Origin: an uncultured Acetobacteraceae bacterium | GTDB lineage: Bacteria; Pseudomonadota; Alphaproteobacteria; Acetobacterales; Acetobacteraceae | Assembly: GCA_903877125.1 (NCBI GenBank) | Contig: CAIRCM010000098.1 | Location: 1-64,000 of the forward strand | Direction of reading: 5' to 3' | DNA length: 64,000 nt | Part shown: one piece after another, positions 23,865-33,055 of the stretch | Numbering within the stretch: the first letter of the stretch is position 1 | Layout: each line of letters begins with the position of its first letter | Position numbers and translations under genes: made by a program | The notes under the pieces: generated by a model | Seen by the model: only the letters and a program-made list of their open reading frames with translations | Told to the model about the DNA's origin: nothing | Database searches by the model: none

Positions 23865-24614
23865 CTACTGAAACTTGAACCCCCGGCGCGCGAAAATCTC
23901 GTGTGCCTGGGGGCCTTCAAGGAACGACATCAGGGCCCGAGCCTCGGCGGTGTCGCCGGTTTTCAGGACGGCGAAGGGGTAGGCGACGGGGTCGTGGGTA
24001 TTGTCGGGGAAGGTGCCGGCGATGCGCACGCCGGTCGAAACCGCGGCATCCGTCGCATAGACGATGCCAGCCGGCGCTTCGCCCAGTTCGACGAAGCGCA
24101 ATGCGGCGCGGACGTCCTCGGCGCGGGCCAGACGTGACTGGACCGCGTCCCACATGCCCAGTTTCCGCAACGATTGCTCGGCATAGAGGCCAACCGGCAC
24201 ATGGGCGGGGTCGCCGACCGCGAGGCGGCCGTCCGCGCCGAGCAGGCCCAAAAGATCGAAACCCGGCGCGATGACGACGTGTTGCGGCTTGTTGGCGGGT
24301 ACGATCAGCACGACATCGTTGCCCAGCAAATCCTTGCGGGTGTCGGCGGCGATCAGCTTGCGATCGGCGAGGTAGTCCATCCATTTCTCGTCGGCCGAAG
24401 CAAACACGTTGGCGGGTGCACCCTGTTCGATCTGGCGGGCGAGGGTGGAACTGGCACCGACGGACAGGCGCAGCGGCATGTGGCCAGCTTTTTCCCAGGC
24501 GGTGGAGATGTCCTTGAAGGCGTCTGTCAGGCTGGCGGCGGCGAAGACGGTCAGCGCCTGGGCATGCGCGGTAAGGGGGGCGAGGAGAAGGACGATGATC
24601 AGGAGCATGCGCAT
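23865..24614 (-). CDS. modA: molybdate ABC transporter substrate-binding protein ModA
   Basis: LTVFAAASLTDAFKDIS..., QGAPANVFASADEKWMD. Confidence 0.9.
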   Translation of the reverse strand: MRMLLIIVLLLAPLTAHAQALTVFAAASLTDAFKDISTAWEKAGHMPLRLSVGASSTLARQIEQGAPANVFASADEKWMDYLADRKLIAADTRKDLLGNDVVLIVPANKPQHVVIAPGFDLLGLLGADGRLAVGDPAHVPVGLYAEQSLRKLGMWDAVQSRLARAEDVRAALRFVELGEAPAGIVYATDAAVSTGVRIAGTFPDNTHDPVAYPFAVLKTGDTAEARALMSFLEGPQAHEIFARRGFKFQ

Positions 24615-24651
24615 CGCTGTGGGTGCTTTCCGAGCGGGTGTTTGCGGCAGG

Positions 24652-24678
24652 ACGATATATACTATTGGATATAACGAC
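24652..24678 (+). promoter_or_regulatory. ModE-like operator
   Basis: aCGATATATActattgGATATAACGAc, close to ATCGnTATATA-N6-TATATAnCGAT, between divergent modA and modE-like genes. Confidence 0.65.
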
Positions 24679-24727
24679 AAGTGGACCGCTTGCACCGCCG
24701 GGGCGGCCTGTGATTGTCTGAGGCATC

Positions 24728-25105
24728 ATGCCGAAAGCCAAAAAAACAACCACGTCCGGTGAGCGGGATTGCCTGAGCATCCGCGTGGACCTCGCCTGCG
24801 GGGTTCGCATCGGACCGGGCAAGATCGCTGTGCTGGAGGCGATTGCCCGTTCCGGTTCGATATCGGCGGCGGGGCGGGCGTTGCGAATGTCTTATCGGCG
24901 GACGTGGGAACTGGTGGAGGATTTGAACCGAGGGCTCGGCAGCCCCGTGGTGACGACGGCCGCGGGCGGCAGCGGCGGCGGCGGTGCCAGTCTGACAGCG
25001 GTTGGGGCGGCGGTGGTCGAGCGGTATCGCGCGATCGAGGCCGATGCGGACGCCGCTGCGAAGCAGCATCTGGAGGCGTTGAGCGCAGTACGGGCCGGGG
25101 TTTAA
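24728..25105 (+). CDS. ModE N-terminal-type winged-helix regulator without Mop domains
   Basis: GPGKIAVLEAIARSGSISAAGRALRMSYRRTWELVEDLNRGLGSPVVTTAAGGSGGGGASLTA; only 125 aa. Confidence 0.85.
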   Translation: MPKAKKTTTSGERDCLSIRVDLACGVRIGPGKIAVLEAIARSGSISAAGRALRMSYRRTWELVEDLNRGLGSPVVTTAAGGSGGGGASLTAVGAAVVERYRAIEADADAAAKQHLEALSAVRAGV

Positions 25106-25220
25106 TTGCCTTGTTATATCGACGCATGATCACGACCGGCGGACGCTATCGCTTCCGGTTTACCGCGTGGCGTACCAGTCAATTTGTATTGCAATATAAA
25201 AACATTTACAACGATCGAAA

Positions 25221-26633
25221 TCAAAACCGGTAGGTCGTGAACAAGGCGAAGAAGGTCACGTTTTTCCCGACCGCCTGTTGGATCGCCGGCCCGGCCAGGA
25301 ATTCCGCGGCGATCGCCCCGACCAGCAGATGCTCGTCAACGCGCCAGCGGACATCGGCGGATAACTCCGTGCCGACCAGGGACCCGGAAACTTTGTTGGT
25401 GTTGGCATATAAAGCCATGCCGCTGCCATAAAGACCATCGGTGTTCGATGCCCGCCAGAGGGTATCCCAGCCGAACGTCGCCGTCACGTCGGGGCGCGGC
25501 GACACGCTAAAGACCGGGCGGATATCCATGACATTGGCCGGCACGAGCAGCGACGTTTCGGCGAAATAGGGCAGCCGTGGAAACATTGCGTTGAATGTGC
25601 CGATGGCGGACGAACGGCTGTTGTCGCCGCTTGCCGCGTTCGCCTCCAGCCCGATCCGCGGGTGCCAGGCCGTATTGGCGAACGTATAGCCGAAGATCGC
25701 GGCCGCCATGCCGGCGCGAATTGGGAGGTTGCGATACGTCCCCGTCTGCCACGCGGCTTCGACATTCCAATCGAATCCCCCAGACGCACCGAACAGCCGA
25801 ACGCCGTAGGTCTGCCGCTGCTCGGCCCCTGTCAGACCACGGTATTTCGCCAAATTGTTTGCATAATGCAGCATATACAAATCGGCCTTCAGCACTGGTC
25901 CGATCGGCAGTGTGAGGTAGCCCCCCCAAAGCATCTGCGCCTGATTGGCACGATCGTCCAACAAGCCCTGCCCGTCGGTCACCGGTCGTACCGCGATCAG
26001 GTCGATCGTGACATCGCCCCAATGGTCGTTGAACCGAATTCCGTCGAAATCGCGGCGAACATTGGGGCCCTCCCGAACCGCGATCAGGCGCTGAAACCCA
26101 AAGAGCAGCTCCTCCCGCCCAACCCGGACAATCGGCGCATCGTCCAGCAATGGCGGCGGTTTGACGTCGACGAAAGCCTGCATGATGTCAAAATGATTGA
26201 CGTCGGTCGTTGAGGCGATACCCCGGCTTCCCAGCCGTTCCATTTCGCCGACCTGCACGAACACCCGAAGGAAGTCGGTCGCATGCACATCGGCGTTCAA
26301 CAGCAAACGGTGCAGGACATAGGCGTTGGACATCGGCGCTTTGATGCCGAAATTCGGCGCGAGGTTGCTTTCCGCACGTTCCCGGAGTTCCCCGCCCAGG
26401 CTGAGCCAGGTGGGGCCGAACCGCCCGTTGGCGATGCCAATGTATTTGATGGGAGCCCAGAAATCATGCGGAGCGGTCTGCCCCGCCAAGCCCGAGAAGT
26501 CGTCATTGTACCGAAGAGAATGATAGGTCGGGTCGCCGGGTTCGGGGCTGGCGGCGTGTGCCGATGCAAGGGCGATAAGAGCCAGGCCCGCCAGCAGCAG
26601 GCAAGCCATTCGGCGAACAACCGCGTTTTGCAT
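25221..26633 (-). CDS. alginate-export (AlgE-like) family outer-membrane protein
   Basis: Signal peptide; FGPTWLSLGGELRERAESN, FDIMQAFVDV, RVGREELLFGFQRLIAVREGPNVRRDFDG; C-terminal F. Confidence 0.8.
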   Translation of the reverse strand: MQNAVVRRMACLLLAGLALIALASAHAASPEPGDPTYHSLRYNDDFSGLAGQTAPHDFWAPIKYIGIANGRFGPTWLSLGGELRERAESNLAPNFGIKAPMSNAYVLHRLLLNADVHATDFLRVFVQVGEMERLGSRGIASTTDVNHFDIMQAFVDVKPPPLLDDAPIVRVGREELLFGFQRLIAVREGPNVRRDFDGIRFNDHWGDVTIDLIAVRPVTDGQGLLDDRANQAQMLWGGYLTLPIGPVLKADLYMLHYANNLAKYRGLTGAEQRQTYGVRLFGASGGFDWNVEAAWQTGTYRNLPIRAGMAAAIFGYTFANTAWHPRIGLEANAASGDNSRSSAIGTFNAMFPRLPYFAETSLLVPANVMDIRPVFSVSPRPDVTATFGWDTLWRASNTDGLYGSGMALYANTNKVSGSLVGTELSADVRWRVDEHLLVGAIAAEFLAGPAIQQAVGKNVTFFALFTTYRF

Positions 26634-26974: not shown

Positions 26975-28777
26975 GTGAGCGACCCAATCCTGCCGCTGTT
27001 GGTGATGATCGTCGTCGCCCTCCTGGCGCTTGGGGTGGTGGCACGCTTTCTCGCGTTCGGTAGCCGGCAGGCTGTCGGACTGGCGGGGGCCGGCCTGTGC
27101 GGTCTGGGATTCATGCTCACATTCCTGGCACTGATCGTCGGACAGGACCCGGGAAGCATGGCGTTGCCGCTGGGCTTGCCCGGTATGCCGCTGGTGCTGG
27201 CGTTCGATCCCCTCGCCGCGTTCTTCCTGTTGCCGATCTTCCTCACGGGTACGACGAGCATGGCCTTCGCCGCCGAGATCGCCGATGCCGCGCCAAAAGC
27301 CAGTCTCGCGGGGCTGGCGCTGTGTCTGGCCGGGGTCGTGTTGGCGATACTGGCGGCCGATGGCGTGGTTCTGACCATCGGCTTGGCGATGGCGAGCGGT
27401 GCGGTCTGGGCAATGGGCGATCCGGGAGCCGGGCGCGTGCCCTTGCTCGCCGCAACGGGACTGGCCGCGCTGTCGGTGCTCGGGGCGACAGCCGCGTCCG
27501 GCTTCGGCTTCGCGGCGATGCGCGGCCATCCGGTCTGGCCGTTCCTGTTCTATGGCCTGGCTTTGGTTGGGCCGGGCGCGCTCGCGGGGTTGGCGCCGTT
27601 TCATGCCTGGCTGATCCCGGCGCATGCGGCTTCACCGTCCCGCGGCGCGGCGCTGTTGTCGGGGGCCATTCAGCCGTTGGCCTATTACGTTTTGATCCGC
27701 ATGCTGCTGGACCTCGGCGATCCGCTGGCGCCGGGCTGGTGGAGTGTGCCGGTCCTGGCCTCGGGTCTGGTCACCGCGTTGATCGGCGGATGGCGGGGGG
27801 CTTCGGATATGGATCTTGGGGCTTCGCTCGCCGGGCTGGCGCAGCGGCAAAGCGGACTGGTCGCGATCGGCGTCGGTCTGGTCATGGTCGGCCGTGCCGC
27901 CGACCTCGCGGGGCTTGGTGGGTTTGCGCTGGCGGCGGTTCTGATGCTGGCGGCAACGCAAACGGTGTGCGGGACATTGGCGCAACTCGCCGCGGGCGCC
28001 GTTCAGGCCGAGGCCGGTAGCCGGCGCATCGTCCTGCTCGGCGGGCTCATCCAATCGATGCCGGTCGTGGCCGCTGGCATGGGCGCTGCGCTGCTGGGAT
28101 GGGTCGCCCTTCCCGCGGGGGCCGGGTTCGCCGCGGTTTGGTTGCTGTTCCAGGCTTTGCTGGTTGTCCCGCACGCACCCTGGTTCGTCTTGATCGCGGC
28201 GGGTGTGGCGGTGTCCGCGGCTTTGGCCGGCGTGGCGCTGGTCCGCATCTTCGGTGTCGCGTTCCTTGGCCGCCCACGTGGCCCGCGTGCCGCCGGCGCG
28301 ATGGATATCGCCCGTTCCGCGCGGCCGGCGATGTGGGCTTTGGTCGGGGTTTCGGTGGGGATCGGTCTGTTTCCCGGGCTGTTTCTGTCGCTCGCCGATG
28401 CCGCGGTTCATCAACTGCTGGGCGTTTGGCCGGATGATCGTGGCATTCTATTCGGCTGGAGCGGTTATCCGGTTCTGCCGCTGTTGCTGGCGGCTGTCGC
28501 GATCGGAGTGACGGTGGCGCAATTGATACGGCGCAGCGGTGCCCCGCCGCCGCGGGAGGCAGCCGCTTGGCACGACGGTTTCGCGCCGGCGCCGGCTTGG
28601 CTGCCATTCGGCGATCCGTTGACACAGTCGGCGGGAGCGGGGTTCCTGCCGCGCCTGCCGGCCATTCCGGTCTTGCCGCGCTGGCGTTGGTGGCCGCGCG
28701 TGAACTGGGGCCTGCCCACGCTGTTGGTCGCCGTCGCGATGCTGCTGATCGCGTTGTGGTGGATCGGACGGGCATGA
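26975..28777 (+). CDS. HyfB/NuoL-like antiporter-type subunit, channel residues not conserved
   Basis: FDPLAAFFLLPIFL, PFHAWLIPAHAASPSRGAALLSGA, LGGLIQSMP...ALPAGAGFAAVWLLFQALL align to the HyfB family. Confidence 0.8.
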   Translation: MSDPILPLLVMIVVALLALGVVARFLAFGSRQAVGLAGAGLCGLGFMLTFLALIVGQDPGSMALPLGLPGMPLVLAFDPLAAFFLLPIFLTGTTSMAFAAEIADAAPKASLAGLALCLAGVVLAILAADGVVLTIGLAMASGAVWAMGDPGAGRVPLLAATGLAALSVLGATAASGFGFAAMRGHPVWPFLFYGLALVGPGALAGLAPFHAWLIPAHAASPSRGAALLSGAIQPLAYYVLIRMLLDLGDPLAPGWWSVPVLASGLVTALIGGWRGASDMDLGASLAGLAQRQSGLVAIGVGLVMVGRAADLAGLGGFALAAVLMLAATQTVCGTLAQLAAGAVQAEAGSRRIVLLGGLIQSMPVVAAGMGAALLGWVALPAGAGFAAVWLLFQALLVVPHAPWFVLIAAGVAVSAALAGVALVRIFGVAFLGRPRGPRAAGAMDIARSARPAMWALVGVSVGIGLFPGLFLSLADAAVHQLLGVWPDDRGILFGWSGYPVLPLLLAAVAIGVTVAQLIRRSGAPPPREAAAWHDGFAPAPAWLPFGDPLTQSAGAGFLPRLPAIPVLPRWRWWPRVNWGLPTLLVAVAMLLIALWWIGRA

Positions 28778-29667
28778 CGATCCTGCTGTCCATTCTCGCT
28801 CAACTGCTGCACATGGCGGCGGTGCTGGTCGCAGCCCCGTTGTTGACTGGTCTCGTCGACCGGCTGTCACATCGCCGCGCCGCGCCGGACGTGCTGTTGC
28901 CCTGGAATGCGGTCCTGCGCCTGCTGCGCAAGCAGCCCATTCGCGCTATCGGTACCTCCGCCATCGCCCGCGGTGGCCCCGTGCTGGCGGTGACCTTCGC
29001 CATCCTGACCGCATTTTTGATTCCGTCGTTCTGCGTCGGAATGGTGTCGGCGCCCTCGGCCGATCTGCTGACTATCGCCGGATTGTTCCTCATCGGGCGG
29101 GTGGTGCTGGTGCTGATGGCGATGGATACTGGAACCGGGGGCGGCGCAGTATCCGCCACCGAGATTGCCCGTCTTGGACTGACCGCCGAGCCGGTACTGC
29201 TGCTCGCGGTCCTGGCGATTGGTCTGGCGTCGGGGACGGGCAATCTCGATAGTATCCTGGCCATGCGGGCCGATGGACTGGTGCCCGGCACGCCAGCGAT
29301 CACGCTGGCACTGGCCGCCCTGGCATTGGTGGGGTGGAGCTACGGGCAAACGCCCAGCATCGATGCGTGGTTCAGTGGCCCCGATTTGGCGTTGCTGCGG
29401 GTCTCCGACCAGATTCGGCTGCTGGCATGGTGCGATCTGGTAGGGGCCTTGGCGCTGCCCTTTGGGATGGCGACGGTGACGGGCGGGTTTAAGGCCTGGG
29501 TCATCGGTATTCTGGCTTGGATCGGCCGAACGCTGCTGGCGGCCCTGCTGCTCGCCATCGTACGAACCGTCGGGGCGAGGTCGCGGGTGCGAACCGTGCT
29601 GGCCCTCGCCGCCGCACTGTGCGGGATCGCGGCGGTGTTGGCATTCGCGGGCGGGGATCCGACATGA
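28774..29667 (+). CDS. HyfC/NuoH-like membrane subunit
   Basis: RRAAPDVLLPWNAVLRLLRKQ; MDTGTGGGAVSATEIARLGLTAEPVLLL aligns to HyfC; ATGA overlap with previous gene. Confidence 0.8.
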   Translation: MTILLSILAQLLHMAAVLVAAPLLTGLVDRLSHRRAAPDVLLPWNAVLRLLRKQPIRAIGTSAIARGGPVLAVTFAILTAFLIPSFCVGMVSAPSADLLTIAGLFLIGRVVLVLMAMDTGTGGGAVSATEIARLGLTAEPVLLLAVLAIGLASGTGNLDSILAMRADGLVPGTPAITLALAALALVGWSYGQTPSIDAWFSGPDLALLRVSDQIRLLAWCDLVGALALPFGMATVTGGFKAWVIGILAWIGRTLLAALLLAIVRTVGARSRVRTVLALAAALCGIAAVLAFAGGDPT

Positions 29668-30152
29668 TCGTCACCGCTTCCGGGCCAGTGCTGGTTCTGT
29701 CCGCATCACTATTGGTCTGCCGGCGCCCCAATGTCGCGTTGGCGGTGGTCGTTGCGCAGGCTGCCGTGCTGGCGGTTGCGGCGTTGTTGCAGCGGCATTT
29801 TCTCGCGGCGGCGCTCCTCGCGGTGCTCAATGCCGGTGGGGCAGGGGTGCTGCTTTTCGCACCTGTACCGACCAATGTGCTGAAACCGAGGATCGCACTC
29901 CCCTTCGGGCTTGCAGTCGCATCTGTCCTGGCCGCGCTGGCCGCCCCGATCAGCGTGCGGCTGGCGGTGGTTCTGCTGGGGATCCTGGCGACTGCCGCGT
30001 CACGCGACCGGACCATCCAGGTCATGGGTCTGCTGGCAATGCAGAACGGCATCGCGCTGGCGGGGTTCGGCTTGGGCACACCGGAACAGATCGCCGCGAT
30101 CCTGCCGGTGATTCCCGGTCTCGCGCTGGCTGCGCGGTGGAGGGCCGCGTGA
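29664..30152 (+). CDS. HyfE-like membrane subunit
   Basis: Position in operon; hydrophobic; VMGLLAMQNGIALAGFG matches HyfE-type C-terminus. Confidence 0.65.
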   Translation: MIVTASGPVLVLSASLLVCRRPNVALAVVVAQAAVLAVAALLQRHFLAAALLAVLNAGGAGVLLFAPVPTNVLKPRIALPFGLAVASVLAALAAPISVRLAVVLLGILATAASRDRTIQVMGLLAMQNGIALAGFGLGTPEQIAAILPVIPGLALAARWRAA

Positions 30153-31177
30153 TCCCGATCTTGACCGAACCGCGACTGGCCCGGATCAGCGCTTGGCTGG
30201 ACCTTGCGTTCAACCTGCTTGGCTTGGTCATCGTGTTCGGCTGCGTCTGGGCCCCCCCTGCGCCAATGCCGTTGCTGCGGTTGGATCGCTTCGGGCTGTT
30301 CGCGGCTGGTCTGGTCATCGTCGCCGCGCTGGGGGCCGGACGCGGCGATGGCTATGGCAGGAAATATGTCATGCTGGCCGGCATGTTGCTGGCCGCGTTG
30401 GCGGCGCATCCGCTGTTGCGGGTCGCCGCCTTGGCGCTGAGCACCGCTGCCGCGCTCGAACCGCATATGCGCACGGGATGGCATCGGGTGCCGTTCGCCG
30501 GTGCCGGCCTGGGGCTCCTGCTGTTCGGCACGATCCTGCCGGTATCGCCGCTCGGGGCCGGCTGCGCGATTTTGGGATTGGCGGTGCTTGCCGTGGCCGC
30601 ACCGGCGCTGCTGCCGGTTCTGCCGTTGCTGGCCGCCCGCTATGCCGGCCCCGAGTTGGTCGCGCTGGGTCTGCTCGCGGTCGTGGGATGCGGCATGGCG
30701 CTGCTCCTGTGGCCGGCGCGGCGGTCATACGCGCCATGGGTCGCACTGGGGCAAGCGGGCGTGGTCGCCGTGGCGTTCGGTCTGCCGGGGCCGGACGCGA
30801 TCTTCGCCGGGCTGGTGCTCTTGGCGCTGCTGGTTCTGAGCCAAGCCGCTCGAAATCTGGCCGCCGGGAACGGTTTGGCCGCGCTGGTCGCCTCGGCGGG
30901 GCTGGCCGGTCTGCCGCCGTTCGGCGTTTTCCCGGGTATCGCGCTGGTCCTCGCGGCCGTGGCCGGGGCGTCGCCCTGGCTGTTGCCGCCGCTACTGGTG
31001 GGGGTTGCGGTATTGGGATGGGCGTCGATCCGCGATCTGCCGCCCCCGAGGCTCGTCGTTTCCGACCGCTGGTCGGCCGCCTGGATTCCGTTGCTGGCCG
31101 GCCTGCTGATCGGTTGGTGCATGCCCGGTGCGGTCGCCATTTGGCTGCATGCCGCCGCGACGGGAGTTCACGGATGA
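30149..31177 (+). CDS. shortened HyfF/NuoN-like antiporter-type subunit
   Basis: GLPPFGVFPGIALVLAAVAG motif; only about 340 aa; GTGA overlap start. Confidence 0.6.
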   Translation: MIPILTEPRLARISAWLDLAFNLLGLVIVFGCVWAPPAPMPLLRLDRFGLFAAGLVIVAALGAGRGDGYGRKYVMLAGMLLAALAAHPLLRVAALALSTAAALEPHMRTGWHRVPFAGAGLGLLLFGTILPVSPLGAGCAILGLAVLAVAAPALLPVLPLLAARYAGPELVALGLLAVVGCGMALLLWPARRSYAPWVALGQAGVVAVAFGLPGPDAIFAGLVLLALLVLSQAARNLAAGNGLAALVASAGLAGLPPFGVFPGIALVLAAVAGASPWLLPPLLVGVAVLGWASIRDLPPPRLVVSDRWSAAWIPLLAGLLIGWCMPGAVAIWLHAAATGVHG

Positions 31178-32526
31178 CCCGCGCGGCGGAGATCGTGAAA
31201 GGCGCGCCGGCGGTGGATTGCCGGCCTTGGCCGCGCCATATCCTGACCATGGACCAATGGGCCGAGCTGGCGCGCGAGCCGCTGGTGCTGCTGGCGGCCT
31301 GGGCGGATACGGTTCAGGTCCACGCGCTGTATCGCGATGGGCAGTCGGTTGTGCCGGTCTCGATCGAGCCTGACGCGGCGTTCTACCCGGCGTTATCGCC
31401 ATACCACCCCAGCGCAAGACTGTTCGAGCGCACAATCCGCGACCTCTGGGGGCATATGGCGGCTGGCGGGGATGACGGCGCATGGCTGGATCACGGCCAC
31501 TGGCCGCACAGCAAACCGCTTTCGATCCGCCCCGGCCCACGGCCGCCGACGGCCGACCCGCCCGAATTTTTGCCGGTCGAGGACGACCGTTTGATGCATT
31601 GGCCGATCGGCCCGGTGGGATCGGGTGTTGGGGAGGCCTACCACCTCCGACTGACGCTGGATGGCAGCCGGATCGTGCGGGCGGAAAGCCGTCTTGGCTA
31701 CACCCACAAGGGGATACTGACGCTGATGCGTGCCAAGTCCCCGCGCATCGCCGCCCGTTTCGCGGCCCGTTTGGCTGGAGATGGCACCGTTGCCCACTCG
31801 ATCGCCTTTGCCCGAGCGACCGAGGCAGCGATGTCGGTCGAAGCGCCGCCGCGTGCCGCGGCCCTGCGCACGCTGATGCTTCACCTGGAGCGCGTCGCGA
31901 CACACCTCGACGATCTCGGAATCGTCGCCGGGATGGCTGGATCGGCCGACGCACAGGGCAGATCCGGTGTGCAGCAGGAGTATCTGCGCCGCGGTTTGGC
32001 GGCGACGTTCGGGCACCGGTTGATGATGGATGTCGTTGTTCCCGGCGGCGTATCCGCGGACGCCGATGCGATCGGGCTGTCGGGGATGCGGCAGGTCCTG
32101 GGCGCTGTCCTGGCCGAGGTGCCAATCCTTGATGCGTTGTTCGCGACAGGCGCTCTCGCCGCGCGTTTAACCGGGGTGGGAGACTGCGCCGCGGGTGACG
32201 CCGTGCGGCGCTGCCAAGCCCGCTTGGACGCCATCCATCGTGACACCGAAGCAGCGATCGCGCTGCTGACGGATTTGCCGGAGGGGCCGCTCACCGTCGC
32301 TCTCCCCGCCGAAAGTGGCGAAGGCATCGGCTGGGCACCATCCGCTCGGGGGGGCATCTGGCATTGGCTACGGCTGGATCATGGGCAGATCGCCGCGGTG
32401 TTTCCGCGCGATCCCGGCTGGGACCTCTGGCCAATGGCCGAGGCGGCGCTTGCAGGGCAGGACGCCGGCGATGCAGCGCTGATCTGCGCATCGTTCGGGC
32501 TGCCGGTTTCGGGGATGGATCTGTGA
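31174..32526 (+). CDS. group 4 [NiFe]-hydrogenase large-subunit-like protein (NuoCD-like) lacking NiFe ligand cysteines
   Basis: LGYTHKGILTLM...RLAGDGTVAHSIAFARATE...LHLERVATHLDDLG aligns to HycE/HyfG-type proteins. Confidence 0.85.
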   Translation: MTRAAEIVKGAPAVDCRPWPRHILTMDQWAELAREPLVLLAAWADTVQVHALYRDGQSVVPVSIEPDAAFYPALSPYHPSARLFERTIRDLWGHMAAGGDDGAWLDHGHWPHSKPLSIRPGPRPPTADPPEFLPVEDDRLMHWPIGPVGSGVGEAYHLRLTLDGSRIVRAESRLGYTHKGILTLMRAKSPRIAARFAARLAGDGTVAHSIAFARATEAAMSVEAPPRAAALRTLMLHLERVATHLDDLGIVAGMAGSADAQGRSGVQQEYLRRGLAATFGHRLMMDVVVPGGVSADADAIGLSGMRQVLGAVLAEVPILDALFATGALAARLTGVGDCAAGDAVRRCQARLDAIHRDTEAAIALLTDLPEGPLTVALPAESGEGIGWAPSARGGIWHWLRLDHGQIAAVFPRDPGWDLWPMAEAALAGQDAGDAALICASFGLPVSGMDL

Positions 32527-32539
32527 AGGGGCGATACGC

Positions 32540-33055
32540 ATGTTGAAACTGCCTGCCCGCCGGCCGCCTTTGCCTGGCGCCGAATTACCCGATCCCATCG
32601 ATGGCGATACCGTCGCCGCATTGGTCGAGCGGCTGGACATGGCATCGCAGCGGCGGTTAGGGCGAGCACTGGCGATCCGCCACGTGAACACTGGAAGTTG
32701 CAACGGATGCGAGATGGAGGTCCGGGCACTGACCGGCGTGCTGTACGATCTCACGCGGTTCGGCCTGCGGTTTGTCGATTCTCCGCTTCACGCGGATGTG
32801 CTGGTGGTAACCGGGCCGTTGACCCGCAATCTGCGCCAAGCCTTGGAGCAGGCATGGGACGCCACGCCAGACCCCAAATGGGTCGTCGCATTGGGCGATT
32901 GTGCGGTGGACGGCGGCGTTTTCAGAGGTAGCTACGCGGTCATGGACGGAGTTGGCACGGGCGTTCCCGTGAACCTCACGATCAGCGGCTGCCCGCCATC
33001 GCCGGTGCGGATTCTGTCCGGGCTGCGCGCCCTTTTGGAGGCGAGCAGCCGATGA
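32540..33055 (+). CDS. HyfI/NuoB-like Fe-S small subunit
   Basis: GSCNGCEMEVRAL, GDCAVDGGVF, SGCPPSPVRIL Cys motifs retained. Confidence 0.88.
   Translation: MLKLPARRPPLPGAELPDPIDGDTVAALVERLDMASQRRLGRALAIRHVNTGSCNGCEMEVRALTGVLYDLTRFGLRFVDSPLHADVLVVTGPLTRNLRQALEQAWDATPDPKWVVALGDCAVDGGVFRGSYAVMDGVGTGVPVNLTISGCPPSPVRILSGLRALLEASSR

Follow-up and report, generated by a model that had tools for sequence, protein, structure and literature searches.

The closest described system is the Hyq "endo-hydrogenase" of Azorhizobium caulinodans, which is encoded by the operon hyqRBCEFGI (PMC2650096). Sprecher (2012) reported that the HyqG large subunits of eight genera have neither CxxC motif, and suggested that three further conserved cysteines might provide a substitute site (PMC3357923); the absence of the NiFe ligands in Hyq is already known. 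The energy-converting hydrogenase-related (Ehr) complexes are likewise related to group 4 hydrogenases, with the Ni/Fe ligands absent (PMC6349859). For the Acetobacteraceae themselves, PMC10715153 describes a "deranged" ligand-less bc1 complex and a COX1-like protein, for which a structural role was proposed; its text mentions hydrogenase once (type 1) and appears not to describe Hyq.

The window, i.e., the whole stretch of 64,000 nucleotides that was analyzed, carries a hyqBCEFGI operon at 26975-33055 (Table 1). The hyqG gene is the fifth of six, and the first five genes overlap by a few bases. The gene set and its order are those found in the Hyq operons of Azorhizobium and Rhizobium johnstonii, the latter being our aligned representative of the Azorhizobium-type Hyq. 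The Pfam matches exceeded the cut-off for HyqB, HyqC, HyqG, and HyqI, while HyqE and HyqF are too divergent, HyqE having no match in Pfam or NCBIfam. The AlphaFold2 (AF2) model of HyqB, which like the other AF2 models rests on alignments that include pump-type homologs, reached a pLDDT of 85.6, retains the antiporter-like fold, and has E. coli HycC (7z0s_C) as its top PDB match.

Table 1. Genes of the hyq operon in the window.
Gene	Similarity	Coordinates	Strand	Length	Evidence
hyqB	HyfB/HycC/NuoL-like	26975..28777	+	600 aa	Pfam Proton_antipo_M, 63.1 bits
hyqC	HyfC/NuoH-like	28774..29667	+	297 aa	Pfam NADHdh, 29.8 bits
hyqE	HyfE-like	29664..30152	+	162 aa	Operon position and alignment
hyqF	HyfF/NuoM-like	30137..31177	+	346 aa	NCBIfam hydrogenase 4 subunit F, 28 bits (weak); alignment
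hyqG	HycE/HyfG/NuoCD-like large subunit	31174..32526	+	450 aa	phmmer, Pfam, alignment, AF2
hyqI	HyfI/NuoB-like small subunit	32540..33055	+	171 aa	Pfam Oxidored_q6, 102.9 bits

The hyqG frame runs from an ATG at 31174 to a stop at 32526 and shares 4 bp with the upstream gene. Its product belongs to the large subunits of this superfamily, since phmmer searches against the PDB matched HycE (7z0s_E, 1.9e-26) and the MBH large subunit (6cfw_L, 3.3e-20) far past chance, and the Pfam NiFeSe_Hases score (35.5 bits) was above the cut-off. The AF2 model (mean pLDDT 83.7, with residues 127-178 poorly modeled) gave HycE 7z0s_E (4.8e-22) and E. coli NuoCD as top PDB matches. The stretch RLAGDGTVAHSIAF (HyqG residues 199-212, nt 31768-31809) holds the N-terminal motif RLAGDGTVAHS, in which Ala201 and Gly204 are aligned with the Cys positions of E. 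coli HycE RVCGICGFAHS. The C-terminus, ICASFGLPVSGMDL (SFGLPVSG), has Pro444 and Gly447 at the Cys positions of SFDPCxxC, and all four NiFe cysteines are replaced in the alignment. The surrounding GYTHKG, VAHS, and HLERVATHLDDLG (HLER) are still there. These results agree with the preliminary description of this DNA, made from its letters alone, which had read a group 4 hydrogenase-like large subunit with both CxxC motifs erased and the flanking scaffold intact. The Cys to Ala and Cys to Gly changes that it gave for the N-terminal motif also hold, and its reference string, RICGICPVAHS, differs from that of HycE/HyfG, a small slip. The large subunit does not present the Nqo4-type quinone ligands either: NuoCD GPNHPSAHG and RIEYL are aligned to GPVGSGVGE and RLAGD. 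We take these ligands of NuoD to be His38 and Tyr87 in the T. thermophilus Nqo4 numbering.

Genome contigs, related genomes, and plasmids yielded about 100 large subunits, none of which has either CxxC motif; thus, an isolated decay of the NiFe site in this genome is ruled out, and the close relatives with four cysteines that the preliminary description had raised as a possible objection do not appear in the collection. Its second possible objection, a placement among normal hydrogenases, is not borne out by the tree, in which a 100/100 branch splits the Hyq clade from HycE/HyfG, EchE-like proteins, and NuoD. A protein encoded on a Burkholderia cenocepacia plasmid (L157), annotated as a "nickel-dependent hydrogenase large subunit", ends with ASFGLTIAGCAR and has no usual C-terminal DPCxxC, and may thus represent a further relative of the hydrogenases without ligands.

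The preliminary description went on to state that the protein cannot be a hydrogenase. This holds for a standard [NiFe] hydrogenase, but the wording is too broad, because the Azorhizobium HyqG operons are tied genetically to H2 metabolism, and we have narrowed the claim to the standard enzyme. In fact, a deletion of the Azorhizobium Hyq alters H2 evolution despite a HyqG without CxxC motifs (PMC2650096, PMC3357923), and the complex of the window could still make or use H2, as proposed for Azorhizobium, through an undescribed site in HyqG and without pumping. The retention of the pocket core would fit with this idea: the window keeps His178, Asp203, and Arg282, of which the His and the Arg are found in all the loci scored and the Asp in all save L029 (Glu) and the L045/L085/L099 group (Gly/Ser). 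Nevertheless, we consider that H2 chemistry is very improbable here. The three HyqG cysteines called "completely conserved" (Cys258, Cys491, and Cys497 of Azorhizobium) are replaced by Ala, Ile, and Leu in the window, and they are missing also from Roseococcus and several other pump-type operons, so that they are not a universal Hyq feature. The published Hyq activity comes from genetics and not from a purified enzyme. Moreover, HypD was not found in the genome of the window (97.9% complete) or in the six other clade-A genomes, being present in 9 of the 33 genomes of the genus, and NifH was above the cut-off in five of these 33, with neither the genome of the window nor any other clade-A genome among them. 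Without NifH or HypD, both a standard NiFe hydrogenase and a nitrogenase-linked H2 recycling fail to fit. A place in the nif regulon, a trait of Hyq, is likewise not seen for the operon of the window, whose genome gave no NifH match. We also noticed that all three family cysteines are absent from the pump-type HyqG of loci L058, L067, L070, L089, L090, and L012.

The feature that distinguishes this locus from most of its Hyq relatives is the loss of the predicted proton-translocation residues from the four membrane subunits. We scored 18 proton-path columns in HyqB, HyqC, HyqE, and HyqF, using E. coli Hyf, R. johnstonii Hyq, and canonical Acetobacteraceae Hyq as references. Canonical Hyq operons keep 17-18 of these residues, and the window keeps none (0-3 in clade A, to which it belongs, and 0-1 in clade B). 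All six channel residues are gone from HyqB, with TM5 Glu changed to Ala, TM7 Lys to Leu, TM8 Lys to Pro, and TM12 His/Lys to Leu/Gly. In the HyqC alignment, the E-channel block ENARIPVDNPATHLELTMVHEAMVLEYSG is replaced and about 17 residues are deleted. The Glu of SLENGL in HyqE has become Gln (AMQNGI), in a protein of 162 aa versus 221 aa in R. johnstonii, and the Glu/Lys/Lys/Lys proton-path residues of HyqF have disappeared from a protein about 140 aa shorter (346 vs. 487 aa). A relocated proton path is ruled out, since no new conserved charged residue was found in HyqB, HyqC, HyqE, or HyqF. None of the 18 mechanistic residues is kept, compared with about 20% of the other conserved membrane columns (p 0.018); the proton-path residues were lost just somewhat beyond those columns, and thus a general decay of that arm would explain the data nearly as well as a targeted loss of pumping. 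It is therefore possible that the arm has eroded as a whole rather than by removal of the pump residues in particular.

The pump-less operons form a single clade in the tree, which was built from the large subunit alone, with the membrane subunits left out. This clade has a support of 100/99, appears in 100% of the bootstrap trees, and is nested inside the pump-type Acetobacteraceae Hyq. The erased pump state has a single origin with graded intermediates: L088, located near the pump-less clade, keeps 11 of the 18 proton-path residues, and among the basal members L045 and L099 keep 5, L040 and L091 keep 2-3, and L084 keeps 3 of 12 readable ones. Partial losses of the HyqB residues are also seen in other Acetobacteraceae genera at loci off the tree, i.e., L166 (GQKKHK), L177 (AQGKQI), and L178 (EKKTHK), and these are possibly independent. 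In a family-wide search the HyqB score does not separate pump from pump-less proteins, and hence the states were read from the loci themselves; a pump-less HyqB, always with 0/6 channel residues, is present in 26 of the 33 genomes of the genus, 7 of them with the clade A form and 19 with that of clade B. Clades A and B are mutually exclusive in these genomes and look like orthologs. No canonical copy is found among the matches listed for 7 of the 26, including the genome of the window, and thus a role of the pump-less locus as paralogous partner of a canonical Hyq is not general. Locus L023, from the isolate Acidisphaera sp. S103, does share its genome with a pump-type copy. Several MAGs with the operon bear the titles Asaia bogorensis or Nitrosovibrio, but by their Hyq genes they fall with Rhodopila-like or Roseomonas-like sequences, and the titles look unreliable.

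The redox subunits have followed another course. HyqI keeps all four cysteines of the N2-type [4Fe-4S] cluster (Cys54, Cys57, Cys121, and Cys151, in CNGCE, GDC, and GCPP), and they are kept in pump-type and pump-less operons wherever HyqI was read correctly (rows such as L035, L044, and L095, which gave a wrong frame or a fragment, are not counted). The canonical conserved columns are retained at 51/69 in HyqI and 88/172 in HyqG, compared with 32/105 in HyqB, 27/106 in HyqC, 13/123 in HyqF, and 4/54 in HyqE, i.e., 76/388 for the membrane subunits together (Fisher p 2e-22). The median dN/dS values, which are approximate since they derive from pairwise Nei-Gojobori estimates, are 0.31 (B), 0.25 (C), 0.33 (E), 0.32 (F), 0.17 (G), and 0.09 (I) in the pump-less group, and 0.25, 0.17, 0.15, 0.17, 0.16, and 0.14, respectively, in canonical Hyq. 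Purifying selection acts on all six genes; HyqG and HyqI are as constrained as before, HyqI being the best conserved subunit, and the constraint on the membrane arm has loosened without reaching neutrality.

This pattern bears on two other explanations. An operon that has lost its use and is eroding, in which frameshifts have not yet arisen, would account for the relaxed constraint on HyqB, HyqC, HyqE, and HyqF, for the shortening of HyqE and HyqF, and for the graded loss on the tree. Such a slow pseudogenization seems to us rather improbable, given that all six frames are open in every clade A and clade B operon examined, that dN/dS stays well below 1 in all the subunits and is unchanged in HyqG and HyqI, and that the operon persists across most of the genus, in seven genomes as the only Hyq copy among the matches listed. 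A structural or regulatory relic without redox chemistry, kept to stabilize other respiratory complexes or their assembly, is unlikely, though less so than pseudogenization. The membrane arm does persist after its mechanistic residues have gone, and the deranged enzymes of PMC10715153 provide a precedent within the Acetobacteraceae. Against it, the strongest constraint falls on HyqI, which retains all its cluster ligands, four in number, and the pocket of HyqG persists; the deranged bc1 complex, unlike HyqI, lost its cofactor ligands.

The neighboring genes do not reveal a function, since they are conserved within subclades only. The operon contains no electron donor gene, and its flanks hold no conserved functional partner. 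The clade A operons adjoin glycosyltransferase/O-antigen-ligase-like genes, and the clade B operons adjoin hpnDCBA-like genes on the opposite strand. Downstream of L023-L025, L027, L029, L031, L032, L043, L069, and L087 the genes are convergent and are predicted to be hpnDCBA, for hopanoid synthesis. In the pump-type loci L033, L041, L039, and L050, hpnBA lie upstream; as they occur near pump-type relatives too, this arrangement looks like an old, inherited synteny. Upstream of the operon, the window carries at 23865-26633 a modA-like molybdate-binding gene (-), a short ModE-type regulator (24728-25105, +), and an Alginate_exp-type porin (25221-26633, -). None of the three is conserved beside the operon in relatives, and the molybdate genes (modE-like, modA) were therefore rejected as a clue to its function.

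The explanation that we favor, at about even confidence, is that the locus encodes a conserved pump-less Hyq derivative, i.e., a redox module anchored in the membrane and no longer coupled to the pumping of ions. In this scheme, HyqG and HyqI with a single N2-type cluster would constitute a working redox module that would exchange electrons with a partner at the old large-subunit cavity, and HyqB, HyqC, HyqE, and HyqF would now serve as a membrane anchor that has lost the known means of proton translocation; the reaction would then run downhill, uncoupled from the proton gradient. The complex would thus assemble, carry its cluster, and be redox-active without pumping. The uncoupled redox activity is inferred from the constraint on HyqG and HyqI, and a structural or regulatory role would conserve both too. 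Given that the genes and the iron-sulfur subunit are under selection, Hyq probably survives as an electron-transfer unit freed from energy conservation. Somewhat more tentatively, at just under even confidence, we propose that a member of the complex I superfamily has had its pump removed stepwise while its redox module was kept, yielding a natural, clade-wide uncoupled oxidoreductase whose intermediates would record the order of loss.

Coupling in complex I is usually probed with point mutants. The Hyq operons offer natural, graded versions of a single complex that retain 18, 11, 5, 2-3, and 0 of the 18 proton-path residues, with the cluster ligands intact wherever the small subunit was read. 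With this series, it becomes testable what the HyqG cavity does in the absence of NiFe, and whether a functioning redox module is left after the loss of the pump. A search of the open-access literature revealed no Hyq, Ehr, or complex I-like complex whose pump had been dismantled, and an earlier account elsewhere is possible. It should also be noted that "hydrogenase 4 subunit" and "nickel-dependent hydrogenase large subunit" are misleading automatic names for the Hyq family.

When compared with the known systems, the locus shares with the Azorhizobium Hyq the B-C-E-F-G-I order, a HyqG without CxxC motifs, and the N2-type cysteines of HyqI. In contrast to the Azorhizobium-type Hyq, it lacks all 18 proton-path residues, as well as the E-channel block of HyqC and the three cysteines of HyqG, and HyqF, HyqE, and HyqG are shorter by about 140, 60, and 50 aa, respectively; in addition, no hyqR was identified beside the operon and no nif genes were found in the genome. 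With E. coli Hyf/Hyc (PDB 7z0s) it has in common the folds of the large and antiporter-like subunits and a homologous six-subunit core, but not the NiFe ligands, HyfA/HyfD/HyfH, formate dehydrogenase, maturation genes in the operon, or the proton-path residues, and no HypD was found in the genome. The resemblance to Ehr suggested in the preliminary description is well founded, both being kin of group 4 hydrogenases with the metal ligands absent; Ehr is thought to move ions through Mrp-like subunits, whereas the corresponding subunits of the window, with 0/18 residues, would not be equipped to do so. Finally, the deranged bc1 complex and COX1-like protein (PMC10715153) represent a parallel case in which the same bacterial family keeps a respiratory complex after its mechanistic residues are lost; they have lost their cofactor ligands, whereas the Hyq of the window keeps its cluster ligands and has lost the pump.
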